64,000 bases of DNA from Moraxellaceae bacterium (lineage in GTDB: Bacteria > Pseudomonadota > Gammaproteobacteria > Pseudomonadales > Moraxellaceae). Position 1 is the first letter of the stretch. Every line of letters begins with the position of its first letter. Below the pieces are notes generated by a model. That model searched no databases and was not told where the DNA came from. It worked only from the letters and a program-made list of their open reading frames with translations. This document shows, piece by piece, positions 16,236 to 38,509 of the stretch. Both the position numbers and the translations under genes were made by a program. The stretch spans positions 62,001-126,000 of the forward strand of contig SECL01000001.1 in assembly GCA_004173455.1 (NCBI GenBank). Direction: 5' to 3'.

Positions 16236-18911
16236 ATGCACAGGCCTTGTAATCTAAAAAAACGGGTTCTTCCAACAATGATAAAAACCGCTGGACTCGC
16301 TGGCCTGTTATTACTGGTTGCTCAGGCAGCCTACGCCTTGCCGCTCGCAGGAAGCCAGATCACCAACATTGCCAGTGGCGATTATGTGGATGATCAGGGC
16401 AATGTGCAGGTGATCAATTCCAATCCGGTGTCACTGACCATCCAGAAAGTCTATGCCTTAACCCTGCAACAAAACCAGCAGCAAGTGGCCACACTGGGCG
16501 CACCGGTGGTGTTTCCGCATTTGCTGACCAATACCGGCAACAGCCCTGATCAATATACTTTGACCCTGACCCCATTGACTTCAGCGTTTAGCCTGACTGG
16601 TTTGTCGGTATATGCTGACCGCAATCAGGATGGGGTGGCCGATGACAATGTCAACCTGAACAACGCACAGGTGAATCTGGACGCTGGTGAGTCACTGGCC
16701 GTGGTGGTGATTGGGTCGGTGCCGGTAAATGCCAGCGCCGCCAGCCAGTCCAGCACCACGCTAGGTGCCACTAGCCAGCAAAATCCGGCACTCAGTCAAT
16801 TGGTGACTGATGTGGTAACCGTAGTCGATCAGGCGGTGATTAATGTCACCAAGTCGCAAAGCATCAGCACCGGCAGCAATGGCGCCATTATTACCTATAC
16901 CTTTACTTATAATAATACCGGCACCGCAGCCGGACGTTTGGCTTTAAGTGATGTATTAAATGCCTCGCTGCAATATCAGGCCGGCAGTGCAGTGTGGTCT
17001 AGTGGCACACTGTTGACCGATGCCGACGACAATGAAAGCAGCGTCAACCCCAGCAACAGCGGCATTAGTTACCGGCTGGTGGGCAGCAGCCAGATTGAAT
17101 TCGGGCTGGACAGTATTGCCCCGCTGAGTACGGGTTCGGTGAGCTTTAAGGCGAGCGTGCGCAGTAATGCTGACAAGAAAATCCCCAACACCGGCAGCTA
17201 TAGCCAGTACAACGGCAGCAACCCTACCGCGGTCAAAACCACCACCACCAATACCGTGGTATTTACCCGACAAGACCAGTTGGGCGTTGTACTGAACAAT
17301 ACTTCGCTGTCCAGCAGCAATAGTGGCAACCCCAGTAACAGCCCTGATAACCTGATTATTAAAAACGGCGTGGTAGCAGGGCAGGACGTTAGTTTTGACA
17401 ACTATGTCTGGAATACCGGCAATGCCAGTGATACCTATAATTTAAGCTATGCGGCCAGCAACCTGCCTGCTTGTGCACAGGTACAGTTTTTTGCAGGGGA
17501 TGGCAGAAGTCCACTGACCGACAGCAATGGTGATGGACTGGTCGATACCGGTGCGTTGGCCAGTGGGCAGGCGCGTTTGATCAAGGTGGTGGTTCTCACC
17601 ACGCCAACCTGTAGCACCAATAGTGTAATCAATATTGACGTGCTGGCGCGTTCAGTCACCAACAGTACGGTTTCCGATCCAGTGCGTGACCAGATTAGCC
17701 AGATTGCCAGTCAGGGTGCCACCGACCTAACCAACGCCAATGGCAGCGGTAACGGTGTTGGCAACATTGACAGCGGTGGCAATGCATGGCTGAGCAAACC
17801 CATTGTGGCAGGCCAATCCACTGCTTTTCCGCTGGTGATTAACAACACTGGTAGCAGCAGCAATAATTACAACCTGATCGTGTCGGCCAGTGCCATTAAT
17901 CTGGCGACCCTCAATAGCGCCAGTAGCCTGCCCACCGGCTGGGATGTCAAGTTTTATGAGGGTGATGCCAGCTGTAACACGCTGGGTCAGCAAATTGTCA
18001 ATTCAGGCAATATTGCCGCTGGTGCCAGCAAAACCTACTGTGCCGTGGTCAGTGCGCCGGTAAATGCATCACAAACGGCATTGCCACTCTGGTTTGCGAT
18101 TGTATCCCCGATAAACGGGCAGGGCGATGTGATCAAGGATCAGGTGGATTTACCACAGGCGCGCCGTTTGGAACTGACCAATGACCAGCAGGGTCAAGTA
18201 CGTGCAGGTGGCACGACGGTGTATTTGCATACTTTAAAAAATACCGGTGCTGTGACCGAAGGCCAAAACAATGGCGATGTGTTATTGAGTTTGCAAGGGT
18301 TAAACAGCAATGACGGTTTTAGTTACACCTTGTATTTTGATGCCAATAACAATGGACTGCTGGACAGTGCCGATCCGATTGCCAGCGACTTGCACAGCAT
18401 TGCAGCCAGTGGTTTAAGCCCCAACCAGTCTGTGCAACTGCTGGTCAAGGTACAGGCGCCGGCCAGTGCCAGTAATGGCGTTCGCAGTCAGGTACAACTG
18501 CTGGTCACGCCCACTGGACAGGTTGCAGGTTTGACCGCCAGCAGCGTGCAAAATACCGACACCACCACGGTCAATCCCAACCAGTTACGCCTGACCAAGG
18601 CACAAGCCAAAGATGTTTTGTGTACTACCAGCAATTTTGCCAACCTGAGCTTTGGCACCACGGCGGTGAATGTCAAGCCCAACCAGTGTGTGGTGTATCG
18701 CCTCACCGTACGCAATGACGGTGCTGAAGCCGTGGATGCGGTGATGATTCAGGATATGGTGCCCGCGTATACCACCTTACTGACGCCGCCCGGGGTAAGT
18801 GTCAGTCAGGGCAGTGCCAGCGTGAGCAATGGCCAGATTGCCGGTAATGTGGGCACCTTGTTACCGCAGCAAGACGCTTCGCTGTATTTCTCCATTCGGG
18901 TTAATCCTTAA
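16236..18911 (+). CDS. Secreted DUF11-repeat surface protein, paralogue A
   Basis: An 891-residue exported modular protein. A signal peptide ends near residue 34 (QAAYA/LP). The mature start SQITNIASGDYVDDQGN has the pattern of large DUF11 proteins, which open with 'IxNxAxxxYxD...SNxVxxTI'. Aspartate/asparagine-rich loops resembling calcium sites occur near residue 127 (DRNQDGVADD), 429 (DSNGDGLVD) and 702 (DANNNGLLDSAD). A DUF11-like beta domain starts near residue 205 (AVINVTKSQSIS) and the protein ends in another (CVVYRLTVRNDGAEAV, LYFSIRVNP). There are no catalytic motifs, no LPXTG and no transmembrane C-terminus. GAGGTA precedes the ATG. It is first of seven co-directional surface genes and shares its whole architecture with the genes at 18939 and 28488. 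Likely a structural surface component; function unproven. Confidence 0.8.
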   Translation: MHRPCNLKKRVLPTMIKTAGLAGLLLLVAQAAYALPLAGSQITNIASGDYVDDQGNVQVINSNPVSLTIQKVYALTLQQNQQQVATLGAPVVFPHLLTNTGNSPDQYTLTLTPLTSAFSLTGLSVYADRNQDGVADDNVNLNNAQVNLDAGESLAVVVIGSVPVNASAASQSSTTLGATSQQNPALSQLVTDVVTVVDQAVINVTKSQSISTGSNGAIITYTFTYNNTGTAAGRLALSDVLNASLQYQAGSAVWSSGTLLTDADDNESSVNPSNSGISYRLVGSSQIEFGLDSIAPLSTGSVSFKASVRSNADKKIPNTGSYSQYNGSNPTAVKTTTTNTVVFTRQDQLGVVLNNTSLSSSNSGNPSNSPDNLIIKNGVVAGQDVSFDNYVWNTGNASDTYNLSYAASNLPACAQVQFFAGDGRSPLTDSNGDGLVDTGALASGQARLIKVVVLTTPTCSTNSVINIDVLARSVTNSTVSDPVRDQISQIASQGATDLTNANGSGNGVGNIDSGGNAWLSKPIVAGQSTAFPLVINNTGSSSNNYNLIVSASAINLATLNSASSLPTGWDVKFYEGDASCNTLGQQIVNSGNIAAGASKTYCAVVSAPVNASQTALPLWFAIVSPINGQGDVIKDQVDLPQARRLELTNDQQGQVRAGGTTVYLHTLKNTGAVTEGQNNGDVLLSLQGLNSNDGFSYTLYFDANNNGLLDSADPIASDLHSIAASGLSPNQSVQLLVKVQAPASASNGVRSQVQLLVTPTGQVAGLTASSVQNTDTTTVNPNQLRLTKAQAKDVLCTTSNFANLSFGTTAVNVKPNQCVVYRLTVRNDGAEAVDAVMIQDMVPAYTTLLTPPGVSVSQGSASVSNGQIAGNVGTLLPQQDASLYFSIRVNP

Positions 18912-18938
18912 GACGCTAGAGATTAAAGGTAATTGAAC

Positions 18939-21635
18939 ATGATCACTTGTCATACTAGAGCGGCTTTTGGTTCCCGGCGGTTTTTATGGGGACAGTTGGG
19001 TTTGCTGGCGTTAGGGGTTGGTAGCCTATTTTGTCATGATGTCCATGCCGCAACGCTGGCAGGCACCATTATCAGTAATATGGCCATTGGCGAATATAAG
19101 GAAGAAGGTTCCAGCGTGGTGCAAACCAGTCGCTCCAATCTGGTTCAAACCACCATTATTCCAGTGTATATCCATACCCTGACGGCCAATCGCAGCATAC
19201 AAGCCAGCGCCGGACAACGGGTATTTTTTTCGCATGAACTGAGCAATACCGGCAACAGCAGCGATCGCTATAATTTAAATGCCGCCAACCTAAACGGCGA
19301 CAGTTTTGATTACAGCAATATTGTGGTGTATCTGGATGCCAACCGCGATGGCGTACCCGATGGTAATGCCATTGGCAGTTATAGTTTGGCCGCTGGCGAG
19401 TCAGTGGGCTTGCTGGTGGGTGCTACTATTCCCGCCGGCAGCAGTAATGCCACCAATGGCGATGTGCAACTAACAGCAACCTCGCAAACCAGTAGCTTGT
19501 CGCAGCAAAATACTGACCGCAGCACCGTGAGTAATCAGGCGGTGATTCTGTTGCGCAAGTCATTTTCGGTCAGTAACGTCAGCCAGAACCAGATTGTGAC
19601 CGTGCGCTTGGATTATGAAAATCCCGGCGTAGTGGCCAGCGGGCAGGTCAGCATTAGCGACACCCTTAACGCGGCACAACTGTCGTATGTCAGTGACGGC
19701 ACCGAAAACTGGAATGGCCAGATTGTCAATCCTGCCACGGGTAGCAATGATCCAGTGGGAATCAACTATTACCTCAATGGTAATACCATTAATGCAGTGC
19801 TCAGCAGTGTTCCAGCAGGCGGCTCCGGTTTTATTCAGTTTAAAGTCAAGGTCAATCAGGCCTTGCCGGGTCGTATTCCCAATATCGCGCAGGTGAGTTA
19901 CGACCACGACAACAGTGCGGCAACCGCCGACCTGAGCACCAGCAGTAACACCGCCATTTTAACCATTAGCCCCAGCTATGGCGTTGAAATCAACGGACTT
20001 GCAACCAGTGCCAGCAGTGCCACCGCCGATAATCTGGTAGTTGCGCCTGCGGTCAATTCCGGTAGTGAGCTACTGTTTAGGAACTATGTCTGGAACACCG
20101 GCAACAGCGAAGACCGCTTTAATTTAAGCTTTAGCAGTGACAATTTTCCCGCGCCGCATCAGGTCGAGTTTTATCGGGCTGATGGCGTAACGCCACTGCT
20201 GGACAGTAATGGCGATGGCATTGCCGACACCGGACTATTACAGGCTAGCGAAAAGCTGGAAATCGTGGTCAAGCTGCGTACACCCACCACCTTTGCTGCG
20301 ACGGCTGCAACCAATTACAGCGTGTTTCCACAGGCACAATCGCTGGGCAATCGCAGCAAAACCGATACGGTAGAAGACCGTGGCAGTATATTAGTCACCA
20401 CCGCTAACCGGTTGGTCGACTTAATTAATAGTCCAGAAATCAGTAATAATGGCACTGGCAACGGCAATATTAAAAATGGCACCAACCCTTGGAAAACCTT
20501 AAGCGTGAACTCCTCTGGGACAGTGACCTTTCCTTTGTCAGTAAAACATACCGGCACCCCAACCGCTTATGATTTAAGCGTAGATGGTGATGGCAACTTC
20601 AGCCAGATTGAATTGCCACAAGGGGTGAGTGCAGTCCGTTTCTATGAATCAACCGCAGGAAGCTGCGCAACATTAGGTCAGCAAATTGAACAAACCCGTT
20701 TAATGGCCGATGGCGAAAGCCAGCTTTACTGTGCGGTGGTTAGCCTAAAAGCCGATGTGACCAGTGCCAGCAATGTGCCGGTGTATTTTAAAGTCGCATC
20801 CGCTACTTATGTGAGCAGTAACAATAGCAGCAATCCCAGCTTTGACACCCTGATGAATGCCATTAGCATTACCAGCCTGAACAGTACCGGTAATGTGATC
20901 TTGACGCCGGATTTACGCGGACAAATTGCGCCAAATGGCACGATTGTCTACAGCCATAACCTGATCAATAACGGCACAACGGCCTTAAATGGCAACTATT
21001 ATCTGGATGTCAGCAATGACCAGCCCGGTTTTGAAACTACCTTGTATTACGACCTCAACAACAATGGTGCGCTGGACAGCAACGACCTGCTGATTAACGG
21101 CACCTACAATATTAATGGCAGCATGATCGCAGCCGGTGCCCAGTTACGGATTTTTGCCAAAGTACAAAATACTGGTTATAGCGGGGTAGGCGTGGTCAAT
21201 ACCACCAGCATGGTGATGCGTGATGGCAATAACAATGTCATTGATAGCGTGACGGACATTACCACCATTAGCGCCACCCAGATTCGCCTGTCCAAACTGC
21301 AAGCCAAGGATAACAACTGCGATGGTGTGGCTGAAGGCAGCTATACCGCTACCACTTTGACCATTGGCCGCAATGCCGATGGCTCGGGTCAGTGTGTACT
21401 GTATCGCGTCACGGTACAAAATCAGGGTGCGCTGGGAATTGGCACCTTTAACTTCCGCGATACCACACCAGCCGCCACCGTAATGGCCATTGCACCAGTG
21501 TGTGGTAGTTGTACGGCAAATACCATCAGCGCACCAGCCATTGGCCAGTCCGGCAGTATTAGCGGCAGCGTTCCAGCGGTTGCCAGCGGCGCAAGCCATG
21601 TCTTTGAATTTGGGGTGCGCTATGTTGGCCAATAA
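18939..21635 (+). CDS. Secreted DUF11-repeat surface protein, paralogue B
   Basis: An 898-residue exported protein with the same architecture as paralogue A. A signal peptide ends around VHAA/TLAG; the mature start is TIISNMAIGEYKEEG. Calcium-type loops lie near residue 132 (DANRDGVPDG), 423 (DSNGDGIADTG) and 704 (DLNNNGALDSNDL), matching A and D. The block RNYVWNTGNSEDRFNLSF corresponds to DNYVWNTGNASDTYNLSY in A. The C-terminal segment has the shared RLSKLQAKDNNCDG and CVLYRVTVQNQG, then a last DUF11-like domain. ATG 18939 is preferred to TTG 18933 because AAAGG is correctly spaced only for the ATG. It follows A by 27 bases. Only the general role, surface structure, can be inferred. Confidence 0.8.
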   Translation: MITCHTRAAFGSRRFLWGQLGLLALGVGSLFCHDVHAATLAGTIISNMAIGEYKEEGSSVVQTSRSNLVQTTIIPVYIHTLTANRSIQASAGQRVFFSHELSNTGNSSDRYNLNAANLNGDSFDYSNIVVYLDANRDGVPDGNAIGSYSLAAGESVGLLVGATIPAGSSNATNGDVQLTATSQTSSLSQQNTDRSTVSNQAVILLRKSFSVSNVSQNQIVTVRLDYENPGVVASGQVSISDTLNAAQLSYVSDGTENWNGQIVNPATGSNDPVGINYYLNGNTINAVLSSVPAGGSGFIQFKVKVNQALPGRIPNIAQVSYDHDNSAATADLSTSSNTAILTISPSYGVEINGLATSASSATADNLVVAPAVNSGSELLFRNYVWNTGNSEDRFNLSFSSDNFPAPHQVEFYRADGVTPLLDSNGDGIADTGLLQASEKLEIVVKLRTPTTFAATAATNYSVFPQAQSLGNRSKTDTVEDRGSILVTTANRLVDLINSPEISNNGTGNGNIKNGTNPWKTLSVNSSGTVTFPLSVKHTGTPTAYDLSVDGDGNFSQIELPQGVSAVRFYESTAGSCATLGQQIEQTRLMADGESQLYCAVVSLKADVTSASNVPVYFKVASATYVSSNNSSNPSFDTLMNAISITSLNSTGNVILTPDLRGQIAPNGTIVYSHNLINNGTTALNGNYYLDVSNDQPGFETTLYYDLNNNGALDSNDLLINGTYNINGSMIAAGAQLRIFAKVQNTGYSGVGVVNTTSMVMRDGNNNVIDSVTDITTISATQIRLSKLQAKDNNCDGVAEGSYTATTLTIGRNADGSGQCVLYRVTVQNQGALGIGTFNFRDTTPAATVMAIAPVCGSCTANTISAPAIGQSGSISGSVPAVASGASHVFEFGVRYVGQ

Positions 21636-21669
21636 ATCTATCTATAAAAATTTAACAGGGTGCAACCGC

Positions 21670-24600
21670 ATGCCAGCCCAGTCTGTGATCATCGGCTCAG
21701 CAAGTCAGAATTCTCAAGCATCAGCGACATCAAACAGGCTGCTGTCAGTATGGCTAAAAACGGCCATGTTACTTGTGCTGGCTGTCGGTTCTGGTGCGTA
21801 TGCTGCACCACCGACGATTGAGTTGTTTGCAGGTGGAGGAAGTACATCGGCAAATGGTCCCGTTACGGCTGCGCAGACGAACACCTATCAAGGTAATTTA
21901 AATAATCCGACTGATAATGTGGCAAGCACTTATTCGCCTACTACAACGGTGACTTATTCTTTAAGCTCATCACGTAATTCATCACGTTACTCATCAAATA
22001 ATGGTGCTTCTACCAATAATCCTGATCTGATGTTTGGTGGAACTATTAATAACAATAGTAATGTAGTAACAGGAGCAACAGTTTATAGTCCGCTAAACGG
22101 CATTGGCGCACCTTCAAATGCTAACTTTGCAGCAACCTTACAGAATGCACCATCCAGTTGTAGCAACGGAGCTAATTGCTCTAGTGGTACAACTGGCGGT
22201 ATTGATGTTGCTGTCAATTACGGCTCAGGTATTTTTGCTGCTACTAAGGGACTAGATATTGCAAATCTACCCACTAATGGCCGTTATAAAATAGGGTCAA
22301 TTACTGTAACTTTTAACCGATCTGTCACTAATCCTATTTTGCAGGTAGCAGGTTTGGGTGGTACTACGGGTAGTGGTCTTGGTTTTAGCGCAGAGTTTGA
22401 CCTAGTGAGTAATAATTCACTTAATAATACTGTAAGCATGTCGCGCTTGGCTGGTAGTAAAGAGTTATCTGTCACTTCAACCCGAATTAGTAATAATGCT
22501 TCGACTATTACAGCAAATACAGGATCAGGTGGTGCTAGTGGTAGCGTCTATATACAAGGAAAGCGTATTACATCCCTGACTTTTGATGTATATGTACGCG
22601 GTGATGGAGGCGGAACAGATTGGGATACCACAAATACCGTTTTTGGTGATCGTTTTTTCTTTGGTGTATCCAGCATTGAAGCTGATAACGATTTAAGTAT
22701 TACTAAGACCCAGCGTGCTGGTACAACGGGTACTTTTGTCGGCACGCAGTTGGATGTTATTCAAGGTAGCACTGTACAGTATCGTTTGGTATTGGCGAAT
22801 TCAACTACAAGTGCAGTGAGTGGAGCGACCTATTCAGATAGCGTGCCTTCAGCCATTACTGGATTAAGTATTGTCAGTACTACACCAAGCGCAGGTGCTT
22901 CTTGTGCGCCTACTCTAAGCGGAAATACTATTAGCGGTACTTATAATGGACCTTCGGGATCGACCTGTACCATCATTGTCAAAGGCACCGCTACAACGCT
23001 TGGTCTAATTACAAATACTGCAACATTATTAGAAAATGCGACTGATCCTGATCTCAGTAATAACAGTAGTAGCGTGAATACTAATATCATTGCTGCCACC
23101 AATCTGGCCATCACCAAAACTGGCACCACATCGGTCAAAGCCGGTCAGCCAGTTAGCTATACCATCAAAGTCTGGAACAAAGGGCCAACCGCAGTTTCTG
23201 ATGCAGTGATGATGGATGTGGTGCCCAACAATATTTCTGGGGTTTACTTAAGATGTGCTGCAACTGGAACAGCAACCTGCGGCACGTATAATAGCTATGT
23301 CGCCAGTAGCAACACCAGAGTGGCGAGCGGCATTAGCCTGCCAGTCGATGCGACAGGCAATACCAATTATGTGACTTACACCGTGTCTGGTCTGGCTTAT
23401 CAAACCGGATCGTTTAGCAATACTGCCACGATTAGCTCTGCTGCGGTGCCGGAATCGGATAGTTCAGATAATACTGATTCGCAAGCCACCACAATTACTG
23501 TTGATCCACCTGTTACAACTGGTAATGCCGCCAATCAGTGTTTGGCAAATCAGGCTAGTAATGTTATTGCACCAATAAATTTTACAGGCTATTCAGACAA
23601 TAACACCACCCAAACTCAAAGCATGACTGTCAATAATGCAGGCACAGGCTATGGCACTGCGACCAATGGTGCGATTACAGTTAATGGAAAAATTAGCTGG
23701 TCTTATGGCAATCCGCGTATTACTGCGGCAACTTTAACCCTTTATATCAATAATACTGCCTATGCAGTATTAACCACGGTGGGTGCCAGTTCAAACGGGG
23801 ATCAGGCCACGTGGACTGCACTCAATGGCGCCAGTATTACACCTGCTACTGTGGCCTTGGGTTCTTATGGCAACGCCAATACCGCAGTGCCTTTTACCCT
23901 GACATTACCCACTAGCGTCACCAGTGTGACCTCAGGGTATGCAGAGTTTACAAACATCAGCCCAACCAATGCCAGTAATATGGCAGGGGATGATATTGGC
24001 ATTGCCATTGACTCTATTTTGCAGTGCCAAAAACCTATCATCAAAATTGCCAAGATTTCAAATGGCGGTACCGGTACATTTGGGTTTACCGGCTTAAGCA
24101 ATCTGAGCAATGGCAGTAACAGCGCAGTGACTACCGATAGCGTGACCACCACCACGGCAGGCACGGCTGCTATCTCTACTCAGATTAATTATGCAACAGC
24201 CAACAATACTGCCATTGGCATTACAGAGGCTGCCGCCACAAATTATGGCCTCACTGCGGCCAGCTGTACCGATGCAAATAGTGCTACAACAGGCAATACC
24301 GGTAGTTTTGGTAGCTTGTCTGGCACCACCTTAACCATTCCGGCCGCCAATATAAAATATGGCGCCAACCTGACCTGTACCTTTAGTAATACCAAGCAAC
24401 GCACCCTGACCTTAAGAAAAACCTGGGCGAACGCACGGATCAATGATGCAGCAACGATTACTGCAACTGGTTTAAACAGCTTGGCATCTGTCGCCAATAC
24501 CGCCAGCGAAACTGATATGGCAGCCGCACAGGCTGTGAATGTGGGCAGTACGGTGACCTTGGGTGAAAATATTTCTACTGGCGTGGGCTATTATAATGCC

Positions 24601-28443: not shown

Positions 28444-28487
28444 TTTATCCACACTTACCCATCTAACAAACAACTAGGGGCAACAAG

Positions 28488-31199
28488 ATGTCAAAGCACA
28501 TCGCATTACCACGTTTAAATCAACTGGCTGCGTCGATTGCAGTCGTGGTCGGCGGTCTGGCACTGGTACCGGCAGCACATGCTGCAGCACCAGCGGCAGG
28601 AACCAATATCAGTAACATTGCAACCGCAAGCTATACCGATGCCAACAACACGCCACGTAGCGTAACTTCCAATGAAGTTAAAACAACTGTATTGCAGGTT
28701 GCCAGCTTTACGCTGACTTCGGATCAGACTGCAACTGCCAACCCGAATGGTCAGGTGAGCCTGTCGCATACCCTAACCAACACCGGTAACGGTGCAGATA
28801 CCTTTACGGTAAATCTGGCCAACGTGGCGGGTGATAACTACGATTTCACCAATATTCATGTGTATCTGGATGCCGACAAAAATGGTGTGCCGGACAACAA
28901 TGTTGACATCAAAGGCACTACGATCAGTGTGGGCGCGGGTCAATCTGTTGGCTTGATTGTTGTTGGTACAACATCAAATACTGCGACCAATGGCCAAGCA
29001 GGTCAGTTACTGGTTTCTGCCACCAACGTGTATACCGCAACAGCTGCTGGCGGTAGTAACACGGCAACCACGGCCAACAATACCGATACAGTAACGATTG
29101 TTGCCGGTGCAGTGATTCAGGTGACCAAATCTGCCAATGTGACCAATGTTAATCCAACAGGCACTGCTGCCCAGCGTACCGTTGAATATACCTTGACGTA
29201 TAAAAACACCGGTAATGCGACTGCGACCAACGTGACCTTAAAAGACATTCTGCCTGCGAATGTTACGTATGTACAAAATTCTGGTGTATGGAGTGGTTCT
29301 GCCACAGCGCGTACTGATGCGACCGGTGATGAAGTGGGTTCAGCCTATGACTTCACCAGCAATACGGTGAATTTTGTACTGGGTAGCGTAGCACCTAACA
29401 CCACAGGTACCTTGAAATTCCAAGTAGTGGTAAATGCCAATACACCAGCAGGCTCTATTGCCAATACTGCAACCTTTGATCCAGATGGCACTGGTACTGG
29501 TACCCCAGAACAACCTACCAACACCACCATTGTGACTGTCAATTCCCAATATCTGGGTACGATCAACGACTCACAAACTGATGCCTATGCCGATGTCGAC
29601 AAGATTGCTGGCACCCCGGCAAAAGACGACATCATCACTGCCACCACGCAACAGGGTGTAGCGGTTAACTTTGGCAATAACGGCGGCGAGACAATCTGGA
29701 TTCACAACACCGGTAACGTGTCTGAAACCTATAATGTTGCTGTGAACAAATCTGGCTTGCCAGCCGGCAGTATTGTTGAGCTGTTAAAAGCCGATGGCCT
29801 CACGCCATTAACCGATACCAATGGTGATCCATTAACCGATACTGGTCCTATCGCTGTAGGGACTGCCCAGAAAATCGTTGCGCGCGTGACCCTGCCAAGC
29901 ACTTACACGGGCCCTGCTCCAGTTAGTGCGATTTTGACCATTACCCCGGTAACCAATAGCAGTGCAACAGATACCCTGACCCTGACGATTAGCAGTATTA
30001 CTGCGTCCAAAGTGGATCTGAGCAATGGTAAAGGCGACAAGGACGGCGTTAAAAATGATACGCCAAATGCCGGTGAAGGGGCGTATGTTGCTGGTGACAT
30101 TATTGACACCAAAGCCATCAATCCTGCGACACCAGTCACTTTCCCACTGGCAGTGACCAATTTTGGTAGCACGCCGGACAACTTTAACATCAGTTCTGAC
30201 CTGCCAGCTGGCTGGACAGTGAAGTACTACACTTCTGATGTGAATGGTAACTGTTCTACCAATCAGGTAACCAACACCGGTAGCATTGCGACCAATGGAA
30301 CTGCTTACCTGTGTGCCGTAGTGACGTCTCCAGCTAATGCAGCACCAACGGATAGCCGTGACATTGTATTTACCGTCACTTCTGCTGGTACTGGCTTGAC
30401 AGATTCCATGAAAGATCGTGTCACCATTAATGAAGTGCGTAACCTGTCATTTACACCAGACCGTACTGGTCAAATTGCACCGGGTGGCACGGTGACTTAC
30501 ATTCATACCTTGACCAACAACGGTAACGTGACAGAAGGCGCGGGTGCCAATACCCTGCCATTTGTGATTAGCCATGCGGGTAATCTGGGTGCAACTACCT
30601 CTGTTTATGTTGACCTGAATAACAATGGTCTGGCAGAAAATGGCGAGTTGGTTACTGGTACTGATTTAACCACCTTACTGGCAACTGGTACCCCAAATGG
30701 CGCTGGTCTGCAACCGGGCGAAGCAGTCACCATTCTGGTGAAAGTGGAAGCCCCAGCCAATGCAACCGCTGGTCAGGCTGATACCTCAACCGTCACTATT
30801 ACACCAACTGCTGGTGCTGTGGTGCATATTGATGACACCAGTACAGTCAACATTGGACAGGTTCGCCTGACCAAGCAGCAAGCAGTGGATGCCAACTGTG
30901 ATGGTGCGGCAGATGGTGGTAGCAGCAGCTATACCCAAAATACCATTCAGGCCAAGCCAGGCACCTGTATTGCTTACCAGATTACCGCTGCCAATGATGG
31001 CAACGCTGCTGTCAGCAATGTAGTGGTCAATGACGCCGTACCGGTTTACACCACACTGCAAGCTGCTCCAGCTCCTGCATTGACACCGGCTGCCAAAGGT
31101 AGCGTCACTGTGAATGGTGGGGCATTGGCCAGCAGCGCGTTTACACTAGCGCCTACTGAGTCTGTAAACCTGAACTTTACTGTAAAAATCAATAACTAA
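28488..31199 (+). CDS. Secreted DUF11-repeat surface protein, paralogue D
   Basis: A 903-residue exported protein with a signal peptide ending near VPAAHA/AAPAAG and the mature start TNISNIATASYTDANN. Calcium-type loops lie near residue 127 (DADKNGVPDNN), 443 (DTNGDPLTDTG) and 708 (DLNNNGLAENGE), in register with A and B. A classic DUF11 domain begins around residue 205 (VIQVTKSANVT, EYTLTYKNTGNATATNV). The segment LSFTPDRTGQIAPGGTVTYI parallels VILTPDLRGQIAPNG in B. The C-terminus has RLTKQQAVDANCDG, CIAYQITAANDGNAAV and FTVKINN. AGGGGC precedes the ATG. It has the most regular sequence of the three paralogues and could be the major structural subunit; that is inference. Confidence 0.8.
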   Translation: MSKHIALPRLNQLAASIAVVVGGLALVPAAHAAAPAAGTNISNIATASYTDANNTPRSVTSNEVKTTVLQVASFTLTSDQTATANPNGQVSLSHTLTNTGNGADTFTVNLANVAGDNYDFTNIHVYLDADKNGVPDNNVDIKGTTISVGAGQSVGLIVVGTTSNTATNGQAGQLLVSATNVYTATAAGGSNTATTANNTDTVTIVAGAVIQVTKSANVTNVNPTGTAAQRTVEYTLTYKNTGNATATNVTLKDILPANVTYVQNSGVWSGSATARTDATGDEVGSAYDFTSNTVNFVLGSVAPNTTGTLKFQVVVNANTPAGSIANTATFDPDGTGTGTPEQPTNTTIVTVNSQYLGTINDSQTDAYADVDKIAGTPAKDDIITATTQQGVAVNFGNNGGETIWIHNTGNVSETYNVAVNKSGLPAGSIVELLKADGLTPLTDTNGDPLTDTGPIAVGTAQKIVARVTLPSTYTGPAPVSAILTITPVTNSSATDTLTLTISSITASKVDLSNGKGDKDGVKNDTPNAGEGAYVAGDIIDTKAINPATPVTFPLAVTNFGSTPDNFNISSDLPAGWTVKYYTSDVNGNCSTNQVTNTGSIATNGTAYLCAVVTSPANAAPTDSRDIVFTVTSAGTGLTDSMKDRVTINEVRNLSFTPDRTGQIAPGGTVTYIHTLTNNGNVTEGAGANTLPFVISHAGNLGATTSVYVDLNNNGLAENGELVTGTDLTTLLATGTPNGAGLQPGEAVTILVKVEAPANATAGQADTSTVTITPTAGAVVHIDDTSTVNIGQVRLTKQQAVDANCDGAADGGSSSYTQNTIQAKPGTCIAYQITAANDGNAAVSNVVVNDAVPVYTTLQAAPAPALTPAAKGSVTVNGGALASSAFTLAPTESVNLNFTVKINN

Positions 31200-31241
31200 G
31201 ATCTGTAATTGATGCCACAGGCATTCAGTATGTTGTCTTTC

Positions 31242-31270
31242 ATGGAAGCCGGTGCCACACCGGCTTCCAT
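31242..31270 (+). promoter_or_regulatory. Strong hairpin between paralogue D and the barrel protein
   Basis: A perfect 13-bp stem (31242-31254 with 31258-31270; ATGGAAGCCGGTG/CACCGGCTTCCAT) with a 3-base loop, 42 bases after the D stop and 32 bases before the next start. No T run follows, so full termination is unlikely. It may stabilise the upstream message or reduce read-through into the barrel gene. Confidence 0.7.
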
Positions 31271-31302
31271 TCATATTAAAACTTTATTCAAGGTATATTG
31301 CT

Positions 31303-34300
31303 GTGTTGCGACATACGAAAAATAACGCATACCACGCGACATTCTTACTGTCTACACTTGCCGCATCCATTGGGATGGCTCAGCAGGCTTACGCAATAGC
31401 GCCTGTGATTCCGGTTGCTGGTGTCGCCATCAAGAATACAGCATACGCCACTTATATTTCCCCTGAAGGAAAAACCCGTAATACCGAATCCAATACTGTT
31501 CAGGTCGAAGTTGCTGCCCTGTACGCCATTTCGCTCACCCAGCCCGCAACACAAGAAATTGAAGCCGGTGCGCGTGTGGTGTGGCTCAACACCCTGACCA
31601 ATACCAGCAACACCCAAGCCAGCATTAATATTGAAAAACTGGCAGCCAGTGGTTTAAGCAACATCAAGATTTATATTGATAAAAATAAAAATGGCCAATT
31701 TGATGCCCAAGATGAAATTTTAAGCGGCTCCATCGTGCTTGACCGCTTGCAATCGGTAAATTTGTGGGTGGTTGCAACGGCGGCCACCAATTTGCAAGAC
31801 CAGCAACAACTGAATTTGCCCATTAAGGCGGTAGTGGTTGAAGACAGTAATGTGACTGCAACCGCCACAGACAGCCTGATGGCTTACCTGCCGCAACTGT
31901 ACGCCAGCAAAAGCGTGGATGTAGAAAATTTTACTCCCGGTAGCGGCAAAAGCTATGAGCTAAACTATACCCTGACGCTGGAAAACAAAGGCAGTCAGGC
32001 CATTCGTCCGACCCGGATTTTTGTGGACGGGCAGGCGCAGGACATGGTGGTGATGATTGATGCATTGCCTGCCAACACCACCTATAAAAATGCGCAAAGC
32101 AGCAATGCCAAGGCACTGATTTTATTTAAAACTGGTGACAATACCTTTACCCGTCAGCAGCCCAGCAATTTAAAAGATATTAATGAAGTCGTGGTGGCCT
32201 ATCCAGCCATTGAAGCGCACAGTATTGAGCGGGTACAGCTTAGCGTGAGCATGAACGACAATATTGCCAGCACCACCTTAAACAACCAGTTTGCGGTCAA
32301 ATACCAGCTGGCCACAGGTGAAAAAACCACCCTGTCCAATATTGCCAAAACCGTGGTATCCGGCAAGTCTGAAATCAGCAATAACAGTGGCAATTACAAC
32401 CGGATTCTGGCGACAGGCAGCCTGAACAAACCCTTGTATATTTCTGCGGACAGCGCGGTATGTAATGCCAGCCGCACAGTGAGCGATCAGGTTAAAATCC
32501 GGGTAAAATCCACCCTGACTGGTGATGTGGTTGAAGTGATTGGTGTGGAAACCGCGCCCAATAGCGGCCTGTTTCACTATGAGCTGGCCACTACTGAAAG
32601 CACTACTGCCAATCCCAATGATCAGGTATTGCAAACTGTCAAACGTGACACCGTGCTGGTGAGTCTGGTGAACTGTCTGGATGCCAGCGGGACGGTGACC
32701 AACACCATTGACAACGTCAACACCACGGTACTAATTGACCCGTATGGCATTGTATTTGATGCCAAAACTGGCAAGCCCATTGCGGGTGCCAAAGTCACGC
32801 TGATGGATGCCAGTGGTAATCCGGTCGGCAACAATGTGGCCTTTAATGTGGATGTGGAAACTGGCAAACTGATTCCTATTCCAGCCACGCAGCTCACCAA
32901 TGAACTGGGCGAATTTATTTATCCGCAGGTGATTGCCGGTACTTATAGCCTGCAAGTGGACACCTCTACCATTCCCGGCGCAACCCAATACACTTTTGTG
33001 AGCGACAAGTCGGTTTATTCCAGTTTTCCGGGTAAGGCAGTCAATGCGGATTGGTCGTATGGCGGTAATTTTGCCTTAAACAATGGTGACCCAGCGCTGA
33101 ATATTGATATTCCGGTTGATCCGGTATTAGCCACGCCAACCTCACCGTTATTTGTGAAAAAAACGGCCACGCACACCAGTGCCGAGCTGGGTGATTTTGA
33201 AGAATATACCGTGACTGTGGCCAACCGGGGCACCACGCTGTCGCAGGATGTGTCGATCAAGGACACGCTGCCACGCGGCTTTATTTATGTGGCGGGCACC
33301 GCGCGGGTTAATGGCGTCAAGGTCAATGATCCACTGGGCGGCAAAGGCCCTTATTTAACCTTAGGTCTGGGTAATCTGGATGCCAATAAAGAAGCCAAAA
33401 TCCAGTATCGTGTCCAAATTGGCCCCAATGCCTTAAATGGCGATGGTATTAACCGCGTGCGTGCGCGTGATGCCAGCGGGGTGGAATCCAACGAAGCCTC
33501 GGCCAAGATTGAGGTGACGCCCGGCGTGCTGATGTCAGATGCCTTTATTGTCGGCAAGGTCTTTATGGACTGTAACCGCAATGGTATGCAGGATATTGGC
33601 GAGCGCGGTGTGCCCGGCATCCGGCTGTATATGGAAGATGGCAGCTATGTGGTCACCGACCGTGAAGGCAAATATGACTTTTACGGCGTGAGTGCCAAAA
33701 CCCATGTGTTAAAGCTCGATCGCAGCACTTTGCCGGGCAATGCCGAAATGATCCTACTGGGTAACCGCAATGCGGGCGATGCCGGTAGCCGTTTTGTTGA
33801 CCTCAAGCGTGGCGAATTGCACCGTGCGGATTTTGCCATTGCCGATGGCGCAGGCACCTGTACCCAGCCATTGATTGAGCAGGTTGAAACACGCCAAGAA
33901 AAAATTGAACAGCAAAATATCAATTTAGAACAAGTGCTGCGTGCTGATCTGTCGCTTGACCCGCTGCGTTATAGCGTGGGCGATGTACGCAGCCAGCCAG
34001 CCAGTGGCTGTATTAGTGCGCAAGGTGTGACTGCCAACTGTAATATTGAGCTGTCCAAAGACCAGATTAAAGAATTGCGTGCGGTACAAATTGAACCGGT
34101 AAAAGCGCCGGTACTGGTGGATCTGGAGCAAGCACTGGCTGAAGCCACCAACAACCAGCTGGCGATTTTAAACTTAAAAGATGGCCAGACCCTGCCGTAT
34201 GCGCAGACCACCATTCAGGTCAAAGGCGTGGCGGGTGCCAGCATTGAGCTGTGGGTCAATGGCCAGCAAATTGATGACAAGCGCATTGGCAAAAAAGCCG

Positions 34301-37300
34301 TGCTACCAGACTTCCAGATTGCCGGTTTTGACTATATTGGGGTGGATTTAAAGCCCGGCAAAAACCAGATTGAACTGCGCCAGCTAGATGCCATGGGCAA
34401 CCTGCGTGAACAGCAAAAAATTCAGGTGATTGCACCGGATCAAATGAGCAAGCTGGCTTTGAACGCGCCCAAGCAGGAAGCACAGGCCAACGGTTCGGAT
34501 GTATTTAGTGCGGTACTCAAAATTGTGGATCACAATGGCACGCTGGTGGCCAGTCGCACGCCGATTACGCTAGACAGCACCATTGGCCAGATAGACCTAA
34601 AAGACCTTGACCCGAGCCAACCCGGCATTCAGGTGTTTGTCGAAGGCGGTACGCTGTTGGTGCCGATTAATGCACCCAGTGAAGCAGGCGCTGGCACCTT
34701 AAATGTGACCAGTGGTATTTATAATGCCAATCTGCCGGTACGTTTTTTACCGGCGCTGCGTCCCATGATTGCCGCCGGTATTGTCGAAGGCGCAGTGTCG
34801 TTTGAAAAATTTGACCCCAAGCAATTAAGCCAAGTGAACCGTAACGATGGTTTTGAAGAAGAGCTGAATGATCTGGCTTCCAGCAATGGCGGCAAAACCA
34901 ATACCACCGGTCGCGCGGCATTATTTTTAAAAGGTAAGGTCAAGGGCGAATACCTGCTCACACTGGCCTATGACTCCGACAAGGACAAAGACCAGCGCCT
35001 GTTCCGTGACATCCGTCCCGACGAATACTATCCGGTGTATGGCGATGCCGCAGCCAAGGGCTTTGACGCACAGTCCACCAGCAAACTGTATGTTCGTGTG
35101 GATAAAGGTCGCTCGTATGCGCTGTATGGCGATTATGTCACCCGTACCGAAAACGACGATGGCCTGTCCTTAGGCCAGTACAACCGTTCCCTCACCGGCG
35201 CACGCACCAGCATCGAAACCGACCGTAGCAAAATCACTGGTTTTGTGGCGCAAACCAATGCCACCCAGATTACCAATGAGCAACGCGGTTTGGGTATTAC
35301 CGGCCCCTATTCACTGGGTCAGGTCAGCAGTGATGATGTGCTGCGCAACAGTGAAAAAGTCGAAGTGATTGTGCGTGACCGCAATAATCCCGGCCTGATC
35401 ATTTCACAGCGTACGCTGGCGCGTTTTACCGACTATGAAGTTGATACGTTTAGCAACAGTATTTATTTAAAAGAAGCGGTATCTAGTGTTGATAGTGACT
35501 TAAATCCGGTTTACCTGCGCATTACCGTAGAAGCCGATCAGGGCGGTGAAGAATATACCGTGGGCGGCGTATCTGGCTCGGTCAAAGTCACCCATAAAGT
35601 GCAAGTGGGCGGTTCTTACGTTAAAAGTAATGACCCACTGACCAATGAACAACTGGCCAGTGTCAACACCGTGATCAAGCTGAGCGAACGTGCCAAGCTG
35701 GTGGCTGAAGTGGCACGCAGTGAAAACACCATTGATCCAGCCAACAGCCTGTCAAATATTAATGCCAGCACCTCGGTAACCGGTGAGCAATCCGGCAATG
35801 CAGGCCGTATTGAGCTGGATTACAGCATTAATAATATTGAATTGCGCGCCTATCACAATCAGGCCGATCGCGGGTTTTACAACACCGCTTCACCGATTAC
35901 CGCTGGGCGCAAAGAAAGTGGCATCAAGGCACAGGCGCGGGTCGAAAAACTGGGTCTAACCCGTTTTGAAGCCATCCGTACCGAAGATGATGCCAATCAG
36001 GGCGTGCGTCAGGGCTTGTCCGCCAGTGTGGAACGTGCCTTAAACCGTCTGATGTCGCTGGAACTGGGCGTACGTTATTACGAAGAAACGGTCAGTGCGG
36101 CCAGTGCCACCAGCCAGCAAGTCACGCCGTATGATGGCACCACCTTGCGTGCCAAGTTAAACACCGTACTGCCGTGGGAAGGCTCCAATGCCTTTTTAGA
36201 ATACGAGCAGGACGTGAGCAATACCGATCGCCGGATTTTTGCGCTGGGCGGTAATTACCAGATCACGCAAAAAACCCGCTTGTACGCGCGTCAGGAAATC
36301 CTGTCCAGTATCAATGGCCTGTATGAACTCAATGATACCCAGCGCCGTAATACCACGGTGGTGGGGATTGACAGCAACTACAGTCAGGATGGCTCGGTAT
36401 TTAGTGAATACCGGGTGCGTGATGGCATTAGCGCGCGCGAAGCCGAAGCCGCCATTGGCACCCGCAATCGCTGGCAAGTGGCCAAGGGCATTTATGCCAA
36501 TACCAGTCTGGAAAAAGTCAAAGCCATTGCCGGTACTGACAACCAGTCACTGGACAGCACGGCGGCCTCGGTGGGTCTTGAATACCTGACCAATCCGGAC
36601 TGGAAAGGCGTGGCACGCTTAGAGATGCGCTGGGCCGACCAGTCGGACACCTTATTGAATACGCTGGGTCTGGCCTACAAGCTCACCGATGATGTCACCT
36701 TGCTGACCAAAAACGTATTTAGCCAGATTGACAACAAGGGCGATACCACCGGTGACCGCGTGATTGACCGCTTTCAAGTGGGTGCGGCCTACCGTGACTT
36801 TGACCAGAACCGCTTTGATGCGCTGACCAAGCTGGAATACCGTTATGAAAATGACGAAACCAACCTGTCCAGTCCGTACTTGCGCAATGTATATATTTTG
36901 TCCAACCATGCCAACTTTCATCCTAATCGCAAAACCACGCTGTCCGGTCAGTATGCAGTCAAGTATGTGAAAGCTGACTTTGAAGGCATCAAGTCTACGG
37001 GTGCAACCCAGTTACTCAGTGGCCGCGCCATGTATGACATCAATGAACGCTGGGATGCCGGCATCAATGCCGGCCTGCTGTGGAGCGATGCCAGTGAAGG
37101 CCGCCGCCTGCTGCTGGGCGGTGAAGTGGGATACTTGCTGGCTGCCAATTTATGGCTGTCTGCCGGTTATAACTTCTCCGGCTACAAGGACAAGGATCTG
37201 GCGGACAGCAACACCACCATTCAGGGCGCTTATGTCCGCTTCCGCTTCAAGTTTGATGAAGACCTGCTGAACTTTGATCACAGCAATGTCAATAAATCGC

Positions 37301-37326
37301 AGGAGCCAGACGATGCAGGCCATTAA
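31303..37326 (+). CDS. Outer-membrane protein: DUF11/SdrD-B-like N-terminal region fused to large beta-barrel
   Basis: A 2007-residue protein. The GTG at 31303 is taken as the start (AAGG nine bases upstream). The signal peptide ends at QQAYA. Domains in order: the locus-specific N-terminal domain with an IDKNKNGQFDAQDE loop near 125; a beta domain from about 197; an SdrD-B/carboxypeptidase-regulatory-like fold at about 483-606 (DAKTGKPIAGAKV); a DUF11 domain at about 615-736 (EEYTVTVANRGTTLSQDV); an SdrD-B-like domain at about 746-849 (GKVFMDCNRNGMQDIGE); a short Gln/Glu-rich helix; an Ig-like domain at about 1052-1160; then ~850 residues of alternating amphipathic strands, rich in aromatic and charged residues, to VRFRFKFDED. 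That last part looks like an outer-membrane barrel. It likely anchors or exports the other locus proteins; this is inference. It overlaps the next gene by 14 bases. Confidence 0.78.
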   Translation: MLRHTKNNAYHATFLLSTLAASIGMAQQAYAIAPVIPVAGVAIKNTAYATYISPEGKTRNTESNTVQVEVAALYAISLTQPATQEIEAGARVVWLNTLTNTSNTQASINIEKLAASGLSNIKIYIDKNKNGQFDAQDEILSGSIVLDRLQSVNLWVVATAATNLQDQQQLNLPIKAVVVEDSNVTATATDSLMAYLPQLYASKSVDVENFTPGSGKSYELNYTLTLENKGSQAIRPTRIFVDGQAQDMVVMIDALPANTTYKNAQSSNAKALILFKTGDNTFTRQQPSNLKDINEVVVAYPAIEAHSIERVQLSVSMNDNIASTTLNNQFAVKYQLATGEKTTLSNIAKTVVSGKSEISNNSGNYNRILATGSLNKPLYISADSAVCNASRTVSDQVKIRVKSTLTGDVVEVIGVETAPNSGLFHYELATTESTTANPNDQVLQTVKRDTVLVSLVNCLDASGTVTNTIDNVNTTVLIDPYGIVFDAKTGKPIAGAKVTLMDASGNPVGNNVAFNVDVETGKLIPIPATQLTNELGEFIYPQVIAGTYSLQVDTSTIPGATQYTFVSDKSVYSSFPGKAVNADWSYGGNFALNNGDPALNIDIPVDPVLATPTSPLFVKKTATHTSAELGDFEEYTVTVANRGTTLSQDVSIKDTLPRGFIYVAGTARVNGVKVNDPLGGKGPYLTLGLGNLDANKEAKIQYRVQIGPNALNGDGINRVRARDASGVESNEASAKIEVTPGVLMSDAFIVGKVFMDCNRNGMQDIGERGVPGIRLYMEDGSYVVTDREGKYDFYGVSAKTHVLKLDRSTLPGNAEMILLGNRNAGDAGSRFVDLKRGELHRADFAIADGAGTCTQPLIEQVETRQEKIEQQNINLEQVLRADLSLDPLRYSVGDVRSQPASGCISAQGVTANCNIELSKDQIKELRAVQIEPVKAPVLVDLEQALAEATNNQLAILNLKDGQTLPYAQTTIQVKGVAGASIELWVNGQQIDDKRIGKKAVLPDFQIAGFDYIGVDLKPGKNQIELRQLDAMGNLREQQKIQVIAPDQMSKLALNAPKQEAQANGSDVFSAVLKIVDHNGTLVASRTPITLDSTIGQIDLKDLDPSQPGIQVFVEGGTLLVPINAPSEAGAGTLNVTSGIYNANLPVRFLPALRPMIAAGIVEGAVSFEKFDPKQLSQVNRNDGFEEELNDLASSNGGKTNTTGRAALFLKGKVKGEYLLTLAYDSDKDKDQRLFRDIRPDEYYPVYGDAAAKGFDAQSTSKLYVRVDKGRSYALYGDYVTRTENDDGLSLGQYNRSLTGARTSIETDRSKITGFVAQTNATQITNEQRGLGITGPYSLGQVSSDDVLRNSEKVEVIVRDRNNPGLIISQRTLARFTDYEVDTFSNSIYLKEAVSSVDSDLNPVYLRITVEADQGGEEYTVGGVSGSVKVTHKVQVGGSYVKSNDPLTNEQLASVNTVIKLSERAKLVAEVARSENTIDPANSLSNINASTSVTGEQSGNAGRIELDYSINNIELRAYHNQADRGFYNTASPITAGRKESGIKAQARVEKLGLTRFEAIRTEDDANQGVRQGLSASVERALNRLMSLELGVRYYEETVSAASATSQQVTPYDGTTLRAKLNTVLPWEGSNAFLEYEQDVSNTDRRIFALGGNYQITQKTRLYARQEILSSINGLYELNDTQRRNTTVVGIDSNYSQDGSVFSEYRVRDGISAREAEAAIGTRNRWQVAKGIYANTSLEKVKAIAGTDNQSLDSTAASVGLEYLTNPDWKGVARLEMRWADQSDTLLNTLGLAYKLTDDVTLLTKNVFSQIDNKGDTTGDRVIDRFQVGAAYRDFDQNRFDALTKLEYRYENDETNLSSPYLRNVYILSNHANFHPNRKTTLSGQYAVKYVKADFEGIKSTGATQLLSGRAMYDINERWDAGINAGLLWSDASEGRRLLLGGEVGYLLAANLWLSAGYNFSGYKDKDLADSNTTIQGAYVRFRFKFDEDLLNFDHSNVNKSQEPDDAGH

Positions 37327-38509
37327 GTTGAAACTGGCGCTGGCTATTTGTATGGCCAGCGGTTTGACTGTTAGTCTACCTGCCCTGAGCCAGCCGACAG
37401 CCACTCAGTCTGTCCATCAGCTAGAACAAAACAGTTTGGCTGAAAAAACTACGGTTCAAAATACTGTGGCTGGGCTACATCAGCGACTGCTAGCATTTTT
37501 AAATAATCCCGATGTGTGGACACAATACCACGCGCAAAAAGCACAAATGTGGTTGACCTATGCCGCCAACCAGCACAGCGAAGGCGGCTGGACGGCAGCT
37601 GAACAACAAGCACAGGCACAAGCTACCCAGCTTATTGAACAGTTGGAACAGCAGCAGCCTATTTCGACCACCACGCCAATTATTCAGGCGTCCAAAGTGA
37701 TGCGTCGTGATCTGTGGGTCAATGCCGAATTGCTCAAGCAGCAAGCGGGTTTTGACTGTGCATCCACCGAAGTGGCACAGGCGGAAGTGATGCTGGTCTG
37801 GGCAGCCGCCGAGCATTGTGAACTGGGCTGGCGTCATTCGCGTGAACTGTTTGCAGCGGCCGAACGGCTGATTGACAAGGCCAATGATCAGGTGACCCAT
37901 TGTCAGGGTGGCGGTATGCAGCCATTGCCCCAGTGGAACCAGAATAATTATCCAAGCCTTGAGCAGCTTAATGGCACAAAAAAAGGCTGTCATGGCGTGA
38001 TTGGCGCATGGCCGCTGGTCAGTGCAGGAGTTATGTCCGCCGTTGTCCCGCCAATCAGTTCACTGCCGGTAGCAGAAGCTGAAACGCCAGCCCCAGCCAC
38101 CGAACCTGTAGTGCAGGACGTACTGCCCAATGTGGTTCATTTTGCGCTGGATCAGGCCAGCTTGTCGGCCACCTCACAGCAAGTGCTTCGCCAGATTGTG
38201 GAGGTACTGAACCAAAATACCAATGCTTCACTTACCCTATATGGCCATACCGATCCTCGAGGTAGCGCGGCCTACAATTTACAGTTAAGCCAGCGCCGTG
38301 CCAAAGCGGTTGAACACTTTTTAGTTCAGCAGGGCATTGAGGCCAGCCGGATTGCCACAGTGGCCGCCGGTGAGCAACACGTGATTGCTGATCCGGTTGC
38401 AATCCAAGGCCATGCCTTGAGCCGTCGGGTGATACTGGTGTATAGCAGCGCCGATGGGCAGGAAATACAAACCATCCCTCAAACCGGTGACTTACAGCCT
38501 GAACAGTGA
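37313..38509 (+). CDS. OmpA-family peptidoglycan-binding protein of the DUF11 locus
   Basis: A 398-residue exported protein. Signal peptide to about ALSQ (residue 28). The middle ~240 residues are Gln/Ala-rich and helical (QAQAQATQLIEQLEQQQ) with four cysteines, unlike an OmpA barrel. Residues ~275-385 are an OmpA C-terminal domain: VHFALDQASLS, LTLYGHTDPRGSAAYNLQLS, QRRAKAVEHFL, ALSRRVILVY. These residues bind diaminopimelate in peptidoglycan. The start at 37313 has AGGAG eight bases upstream and overlaps the barrel gene by 14 bases, so the two are translationally coupled. A periplasmic clamp between the outer-membrane barrel protein and the cell wall is the natural reading. Confidence 0.85.
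   Translation: MQAIKLKLALAICMASGLTVSLPALSQPTATQSVHQLEQNSLAEKTTVQNTVAGLHQRLLAFLNNPDVWTQYHAQKAQMWLTYAANQHSEGGWTAAEQQAQAQATQLIEQLEQQQPISTTTPIIQASKVMRRDLWVNAELLKQQAGFDCASTEVAQAEVMLVWAAAEHCELGWRHSRELFAAAERLIDKANDQVTHCQGGGMQPLPQWNQNNYPSLEQLNGTKKGCHGVIGAWPLVSAGVMSAVVPPISSLPVAEAETPAPATEPVVQDVLPNVVHFALDQASLSATSQQVLRQIVEVLNQNTNASLTLYGHTDPRGSAAYNLQLSQRRAKAVEHFLVQQGIEASRIATVAAGEQHVIADPVAIQGHALSRRVILVYSSADGQEIQTIPQTGDLQPEQ

Follow-up and report, generated by a model that had tools for sequence, protein, structure and literature searches.

A locus in Moraxellaceae that may encode a surface fibre built from split isopeptide domains

We analysed a stretch of 64,000 nucleotides from a Moraxellaceae bacterium (the window; GenBank assembly GCA_004173455.1, contig SECL01000001.1, positions 62,001 to 126,000), in which seven genes at 16236–38509 form the locus described here. 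In order, we call them A1, A2, GIANT, small, A3, BARREL and OMPA. We propose, with moderate confidence, that the locus specifies a surface fibre whose split CLIPPER (DUF11) domains are joined through donor-hairpin complementation, in which a hairpin at the N-terminus of one protein would supply the piece that is lacking at the C-terminus of another. The initial annotation, made from the sequence alone, had described a surface structure of rods, an adhesive giant, an outer-membrane barrel and a peptidoglycan clamp; it missed the split isopeptide domain, a possible route to polymerize and anchor a fibre without a sortase.

CLIPPER is the recent new name of DUF11, a CnaA-like domain whose Lys–Asn isopeptide bond is presumably assisted by an Asp (PMC12617251). 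In PDB 9IFR, a solved domain from an Acinetobacter silvestris protein, the same text places the bond between Lys715 and Asn806, with Asp748 nearby. The internal domain of A3 (approximately residues 205–350) carries the Lys, Asp and Asn of a CLIPPER/DUF11 domain: Lys214 is kept in 35 of 36 aligned rows, Asp253 and Asn326 in all 36. Structure comparison with VIA aligns the A3 model to 9ifr with Z 11.3 and a root-mean-square deviation (rmsd) of 3.0 over 121 amino acids. Foldseek also pairs A3 with ciliary, complement and titin proteins, matches that look like generic immunoglobulin-rod similarity and were dropped.

At the C-termini the domain is truncated. The Pfam DUF11 match ends at position 85 of 114 in A1, 86 in A3 and 85 in GIANT, where the protein itself stops, while the six remaining matches in the locus extend to 98–113 in five cases and to 90 in one. 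These C-terminal domains, here called acceptors, keep the Lys and the Asp and are followed by no Asn-bearing strand; A2 ends in the same truncated domain according to a local model, and a Pfam scan of A2 gave no match. For comparison we used 79 named loci, mostly from Alkanindiges, Acinetobacter and Psychrobacter, with others from Moraxella, Agitococcus and Fluviicoccus. The acceptor Lys and Asp are both kept in 75 of 75 A proteins of the conserved core (see below). Among the 74 non-core acceptor proteins of these loci, 72 have the Asp and 59 the Lys, the Lys position of the remaining 15 lying beyond the alignment. Distant A proteins of just 333–420 residues end at the same strand and start with a similar hairpin.

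Where is the missing strand? The mature N-termini of A1, A2, A3 and BARREL share the pattern A-G-x-x-I-x-N-x-A, some with an extra residue before the Ile, and a second strand with S-N. This hairpin (the donor) looks like the piece missing from the C-terminal DUF11 domain. When both are aligned by hhalign to a 143-column internal DUF11 profile, the C-terminal domain occupies columns 1–113 and the N-terminal segment columns 109–143, with Asn on Asn. We also fused each of 12,438 segments of 45 amino acids, taken from 19 proteins of the window, to each of the four C-terminal domains and scored the gain. Segments from the internal domains of A1–A3 (starts 195–345), the region on which the model was built, were set apart. 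The hairpins gain 8.9–15.5 bits. The best eight other segments per domain come from BARREL 698–710, GIANT 438–442, A3 587–589 and A2 522–526; some of them outscore the hairpins, and those of BARREL and GIANT lie where other DUF11 domains end. With the DUF11 model of Pfam itself, a hairpin adds 4.3–7.4 bits, against 1.5 and 1.7 bits for two control segments. Among the sequences that aligned (77 of 79, 73 of 75, 21 of 23 and 12 of 20 queried, respectively), the Asn of the hairpin is conserved in all 77 barrel proteins, 71 of 73 core A proteins, 20 of 21 distant A proteins and 11 of 12 distant barrels.

The two kinds of ends are distributed differently among the proteins. Counting proteins with any match, all 76 core A proteins and none of the 78 barrels have an acceptor within 15 amino acids of the C-terminus. 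A hairpin stands at the protein start in 74 of the 76 and 73 of the 78. From this pattern GIANT, with an acceptor only, appears to be a tip, the A proteins, with both ends, appear to form a shaft, and the barrel protein, with a donor only, appears to be a base. Proteins of the tip, shaft and base types occur together in 62 of the 79 named loci, a count in which tip-type proteins at a locus's left end are often cut, with their N-termini outside the examined DNA.

The truncation, the resemblance of the hairpin, the conservation of residues, the gene order and the co-occurrence described below lead us to the following model. The subunits would pass the inner membrane by means of their signal peptides, and small may hold their reactive hairpins. 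The barrel would take up the periplasmic subunits and export them tip first. The N-terminal hairpin of one subunit, with its reactive Asn, would complete the C-terminal domain of another, with its reactive Lys and catalytic Asp, and a Lys–Asn isopeptide bond would then form spontaneously between the chains by CLIPPER chemistry. Finally, the barrel's own hairpin would cap the base of the fibre, which would become covalently tied to the outer-membrane barrel, and OMPA would clamp the barrel to the peptidoglycan. The barrel is thus a likely exit port and OMPA a likely peptidoglycan clamp; surface location and adhesion are inferred. The small protein stops at the same strand as the truncated acceptors. 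In the 65 of 71 small proteins that align, the Asp is never present (Leu in 63, Val in two) and the Lys column holds no Lys, a pattern that makes small a likely reversible acceptor, serving as a cap or a holding chaperone. More distant small-like open reading frames (ORFs) of 178–197 amino acids occur in genus g10, with an extra copy in one g9 genome (L215, L216, L217); no A or barrel gene was found near them.

Is the arrangement particular to one genome? The initial annotation had proposed asking whether the gene order recurs, and it does: small, A and BARREL stand in this order and direction in 71 of the 79 named loci, with OMPA next in 61. The full order is absent from 18 loci: five are truncated by a contig end, nine are Acinetobacter loci with no recognizable OmpA there, and in four, genes are lacking, broken or replaced. 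Since the same core order is found in other genera, the locus is not a chance arrangement. The genes small, A3, BARREL and OMPA are a conserved four-gene core, and A1, A2 and GIANT are an accessory block, present in the genus of the window and in part of Acinetobacter; other genera have different giant-type proteins upstream or downstream of the core. The single surface structure of the initial annotation fits well with the recurring order and the co-occurrence of A and barrel, but its seven genes are not an indivisible set. The flanks of the core vary between genera and inside Acinetobacter, and one copy is plasmid-borne (Acinetobacter haemolyticus); the core therefore seems to move as a unit.

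The C-terminal 841 residues of the barrel protein have matches in 92 of 199 genomes of the family (9 of 16 genera), and A-type proteins are present in 91 of the 199. They occur together in 90 genomes, while 42 would be expected by chance. Only three of the 93 genomes with either have just one of the two: an 88%-complete draft with A and no barrel, and two Psychrobacter-type genomes with a marginal barrel match only (E-values 5e-4 and 1e-4), in which small and OmpA remain and there is no A. A and barrel seem to have been lost jointly in the Psychrobacter-type loci. Beyond the family, barrel matches, part of them partial, occur in 53 of 369 genomes of the class and 55 of 398 of the phylum, two sets that overlap in some genomes. 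Barrels from three Alkanindiges records are 95–96% identical to that of the window, on which basis we assign the window to this genus. In two strains of the genus, A3 is 54–57% identical, as against 91–92% for the barrel. Between the window and one locus (L070), BARREL is 91% identical, and A3 is 97% identical over residues 1–30, 73–80% up to residue 120 and then 17–70% per 30-residue block. Such fast divergence of A3 fits surface exposure.

Individual loci vary further. One genome carries a tandem double small-A-barrel, with OmpA after the second copy only (L059-L060, genome G115). The A. haemolyticus module lies on plasmid p4 near arsenic resistance genes (L220, 9056–22563), and its A is annotated in short pieces and looks broken. 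In another locus (L043, 12702–15418, genome G106) A3 is present as two ORFs of 591 and 298 amino acids, either a broken gene or a sequencing error. Four Psychrobacter-type loci (L212 in G149, L213 in G073, L218 in G095 and L219 in G193) keep small and OmpA between the same flanks and have no A; in L219 a barrel fragment of 121 amino acids is still present.

In the structure model of the barrel domain, with a mean predicted local distance difference test score (pLDDT) of 67.7, we counted 32 strands after a plug-like insert (approximately 287–359) and four to six before it, so that the barrel probably has about 36–38 strands, a total made doubtful by the first two strands, which lie in a region of the model with a pLDDT below 50. 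The best PDB match by Foldseek is SprA (6h3i, E-value 1.4e-7), followed by SlpA (8ae1, E-value 1.7e-7, with a low template modelling (TM) score). By VIA, FimD or PapC take ranks 1–8 (9fy9_D: Z 17.4, rmsd 4.7, 325 amino acids) and other barrels reach Z 14–15.4, which suggests an usher-like port. An usher profile reaches a probability of 80% in hhalign, but TonB receptors score better (96.5%), so the usher signal may be a generic barrel pattern. A profile of the barrel finds no match among PDB sequences up to an E-value of 1, Pfam and NCBIfam give no SprA match, and the domain is unnamed in NCBIfam. Three of four barrel relatives on alphaproteobacterial plasmids are annotated as TonB-dependent receptors, probably misnamed.

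SprA is a very large single-chain barrel. The match to it raises the alternative that the barrel is a channel of the Type IX secretion system (T9SS) type, with the C-terminal domain as sorting signal and the truncation and hairpin serving folding rather than polymerization. The acceptor is indeed C-terminal in both shaft and giant proteins, and SprA has the best E-value. However, TM-scores over the SprA entries are just 0.07–0.20 (the match with E-value 1.4e-7 has 0.19 and 0.11), the barrel profile has no match among PDB sequences, and this alternative does not explain why barrel and A share a hairpin with a conserved Asn that is absent from the C-terminal domain; we consider it improbable. 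The T9SS is called specific to Bacteroidetes in the accessible part of one account (PMC7463736).

A second alternative concerns the periplasm. Of five distant barrel proteins scanned, four have a Pfam OmpA domain in the same chain, ahead of the barrel (for example at 784–885 of the barrel protein of L168), and a local model adds two more. This fusion ties the separate OmpA gene of the window to the barrel and suggests a periplasmic position for the segment that directly precedes the barrel, a point that the initial annotation also missed. The same relatives make it less likely that the N-terminal rod of the barrel protein serves in its entirety as a surface passenger, but its far N-terminus could still be outside the cell. 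Might the locus then encode a tether between outer membrane and peptidoglycan with a large porin, like SlpA of Deinococcus or OmpM of Veillonella, with periplasmic DUF11 spacers and no fibre? The OmpA domain next to the barrel, in either form, and the SlpA match would agree with it. Unlike the SlpA/OmpM type, in which peptidoglycan-binding domain and barrel form a single chain, the window has OmpA as a separate gene. A tether of this kind also leaves unexplained the giants and shaft proteins with their matched ends, and why A3 diverges so strongly inside the genus. We regard it as quite unlikely.

Several observations weigh against the fibre that we propose. The hairpin alone aligns weakly in hhalign (probability 10.7%, E-value 0.0029), the A2 hairpin is the weakest in the joining test and may be equalled by segments outside the best eight, and one of the Pfam control segments likewise stretched the match to position 105. 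Among 32 distant acceptors, 31 have the Asp and 10 the Lys, with the Lys position of 22 outside the alignment; by eye, a Lys stands at the expected place in 15 of the 19 relevant tails inspected. The tip, shaft and base types are found together in 42 of the 79 named loci when the N-terminus of the tip-type protein is required to lie inside the examined DNA, and in 4 of 20 distant loci, for which models built on Moraxellaceae were used. The evidence for export through the barrel is gene order and a structure model of middling quality. In 32 of the 199 Moraxellaceae genomes the small family is present while A and barrel are absent, and for this reason small as a dedicated chaperone is merely a guess. 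The initial annotation had held that single, unlinked genes would speak against one system; this was not seen for A and barrel, whereas genes of the small family do also occur apart from them.

A 900-residue monomer might also bend and complete itself. The hairpin would then close the C-terminal domain of its own chain, and the A proteins would be stabilized monomers or rings. In the A3 monomer model residues 41–50 have a pLDDT of 93, so the N-terminal strand may dock within the chain. In the window, however, GIANT has an acceptor without a hairpin and the barrel a hairpin without an acceptor, ends that could pair only between chains, and we give self-closure little credence. It is very unlikely that these are DUF11 adhesins of the ordinary kind, with similar ends through common ancestry alone: tandem DUF11 domains are common as stalks of surface proteins (accessible parts of PMC12617251 and PMC9210967), but the fixed gene order, the reciprocal ends and the position-specific conservation of residues speak against it.

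How does the proposed fibre compare with known systems? Chaperone-usher pili (FimA-H, Pap) would share with it the donor-strand logic, with a tip that is acceptor only, a shaft with both ends and a base, as well as a large outer-membrane barrel. FimD and PapC lead the VIA ranks of the locus barrel, whose plug-like insert follows the first strands in our reading of the model. In contrast to these pili, the subunits here have approximately 330–1000 amino acids, the donor would be a two-strand hairpin with an isopeptide Asn, and the barrel itself would be the base. No match to the PapD-type chaperone family (PF00345, with a positive E. coli control) or the usher family (PF00577) was found in the window's genome, and PF00577 has no match among 15 barrels at E-values up to 10, a search in which HMMER filters drop most weak matches. 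Gram-positive sortase pili have CnaA-type isopeptide domains (RrgB, SpaA, SpaD and BcpA are among the VIA matches of A3) and a covalent chain, as proposed here. They differ in that the link in the locus would form by itself in a split domain; sortase (PF04203) has no match in the window's genome, with three of 14 controls positive.

The CLIPPER adhesin B9T28_05395 of A. silvestris (9IFR) has the same domain family and Lys–Asp–Asn triad, but its domain is complete and its bond intramolecular, and the accessible part of that report describes no split domain or operon (PMC12617251). Archaeal threads of Saci_0406 are donor-strand filaments for which isopeptide bonds between subunits have been proposed, and their gene cluster includes a putative cap protein; as given in the accessible part of the source (PMC9715654), the link joins the N-terminal amine of Asp24 to Asn57 of the subunit two places away, and no outer membrane is involved.

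A further parallel is man-made. SpyTag/SpyCatcher and isopeptag are engineered split isopeptide domains, in which a strand rebuilds the domain and an isopeptide bond forms spontaneously; in the locus the split would be natural and used for polymerizing. We found no description of this operon or of a split DUF11 domain in the open-access literature (titles and beginnings of abstracts, bioRxiv preprints excluded), and no named operon appeared that matches, in line with the initial annotation, which did not recognize a named system. The donor-strand principle is known; new would be the chemistry of a split isopeptide domain, a base formed by the barrel, and machinery for which we detected no kinship with the families of a named pathway. 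It is tempting, though tentative, to see here a new class of pilus, one that welds itself through split isopeptide domains without a sortase, with a barrel of about 36–38 strands as both exporter and terminal subunit and small, a non-reactive copy of the split domain, as a reversible cap that would prevent donor hairpins from reacting before export.

In Table 1 we list the features of the locus. Its seven ORFs lie between rsmB (end at 15809; fmt-rsmB on this side) and a minus-strand gene at 38639, beyond which is ilvD. The initial annotation of seven co-directional genes with signal peptides agrees with our ORFs and, judged by eye, with the signal-peptide-like N-termini of all seven proteins. 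Its three paralogues stand (A1 is 35% and A2 32% identical to A3), as does the 14-base overlap of BARREL and OMPA, provided that OMPA starts at 37313. Pfam DUF11 matches are above the cut-off in A1, GIANT, A3 and BARREL and below it in small; BARREL also matches SdrD_B and the last gene OmpA. All nine DUF11 (PF01345) matches in the 3.0-Mb genome are inside this locus. Promoter scans gave site counts near those of shuffled sequences, or at most approximately two standard deviations above. The minus-strand gene (38639–39139) encodes a protein of 166 amino acids with a signal-like start and no Pfam match, which lies beside the locus in three relatives of the genus (78–83% identity).

Table 1. Features of the locus, in window coordinates; donor, acceptor, tip, shaft and barrel are assignments from sequence or structure models
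Feature	Position	Strand	Remarks
A1, 891 aa, exported, multi-domain, shaft-type: N-terminal donor hairpin and C-terminal truncated DUF11	16236..18911	+	
A1 putative donor hairpin, mature N-terminus, Asn44 by count	16341..16445	+	
A1 C-terminal truncated DUF11, putative acceptor; Lys and Asp, without Asn strand	18576..18908	+	Pfam profile 11-85 of 114
A2, 898 aa, shaft-type paralogue, from ATG 18939	18939..21635	+	
A2 putative donor hairpin	19053..19157	+	
A2 C-terminal truncated domain, putative acceptor	21273..21632	+	local model only
GIANT, 1989 aa, tip-type, ATG 21670: C-terminal acceptor, no donor hairpin found	21670..27639	+	
GIANT C-terminal truncated DUF11, putative acceptor	27316..27636	+	Pfam profile 8-85 of 114
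309-bp spacer separating the core from the accessory block; sites resembling a terminator (27712-27726) and a promoter (27793-27821)	27640..27948	+	consensus matches only
small, 164 aa, exported, single truncated DUF11 without isopeptide Lys and Asp	27949..28443	+	
A3, 903 aa, putative core shaft subunit	28488..31199	+	
A3 putative donor hairpin, Asn43 in 36/36 aligned rows	28587..28697	+	
A3 C-terminal truncated domain, putative acceptor; Lys796, Asp849, Cys804 and Cys827 in 36/36 rows	30849..31196	+	Pfam profile 7-86 of 114
BARREL, 2024 aa: donor hairpin, DUF11, SdrD_B, Big_1-like domain, large C-terminal barrel	31252..37326	+	
BARREL N-terminal putative donor hairpin, Asn62 by count	31408..31521	+	
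Predicted barrel domain	34801..37323	+	structure model
OMPA, exported, from ATG 37313; C-terminal OmpA peptidoglycan-binding domain at approximately 38141-38407	37313..38509	+	

If the proposed mechanism is true, Gram-negative bacteria naturally use the split self-reacting domain of protein engineers to polymerize and anchor surface fibres. It would explain covalent, sortase-free fibres in Moraxellaceae and other Pseudomonadota, and it would give a function to many genes that are annotated merely as DUF11 or OmpA family. The matched ends would also represent new covalent protein-joining pairs.

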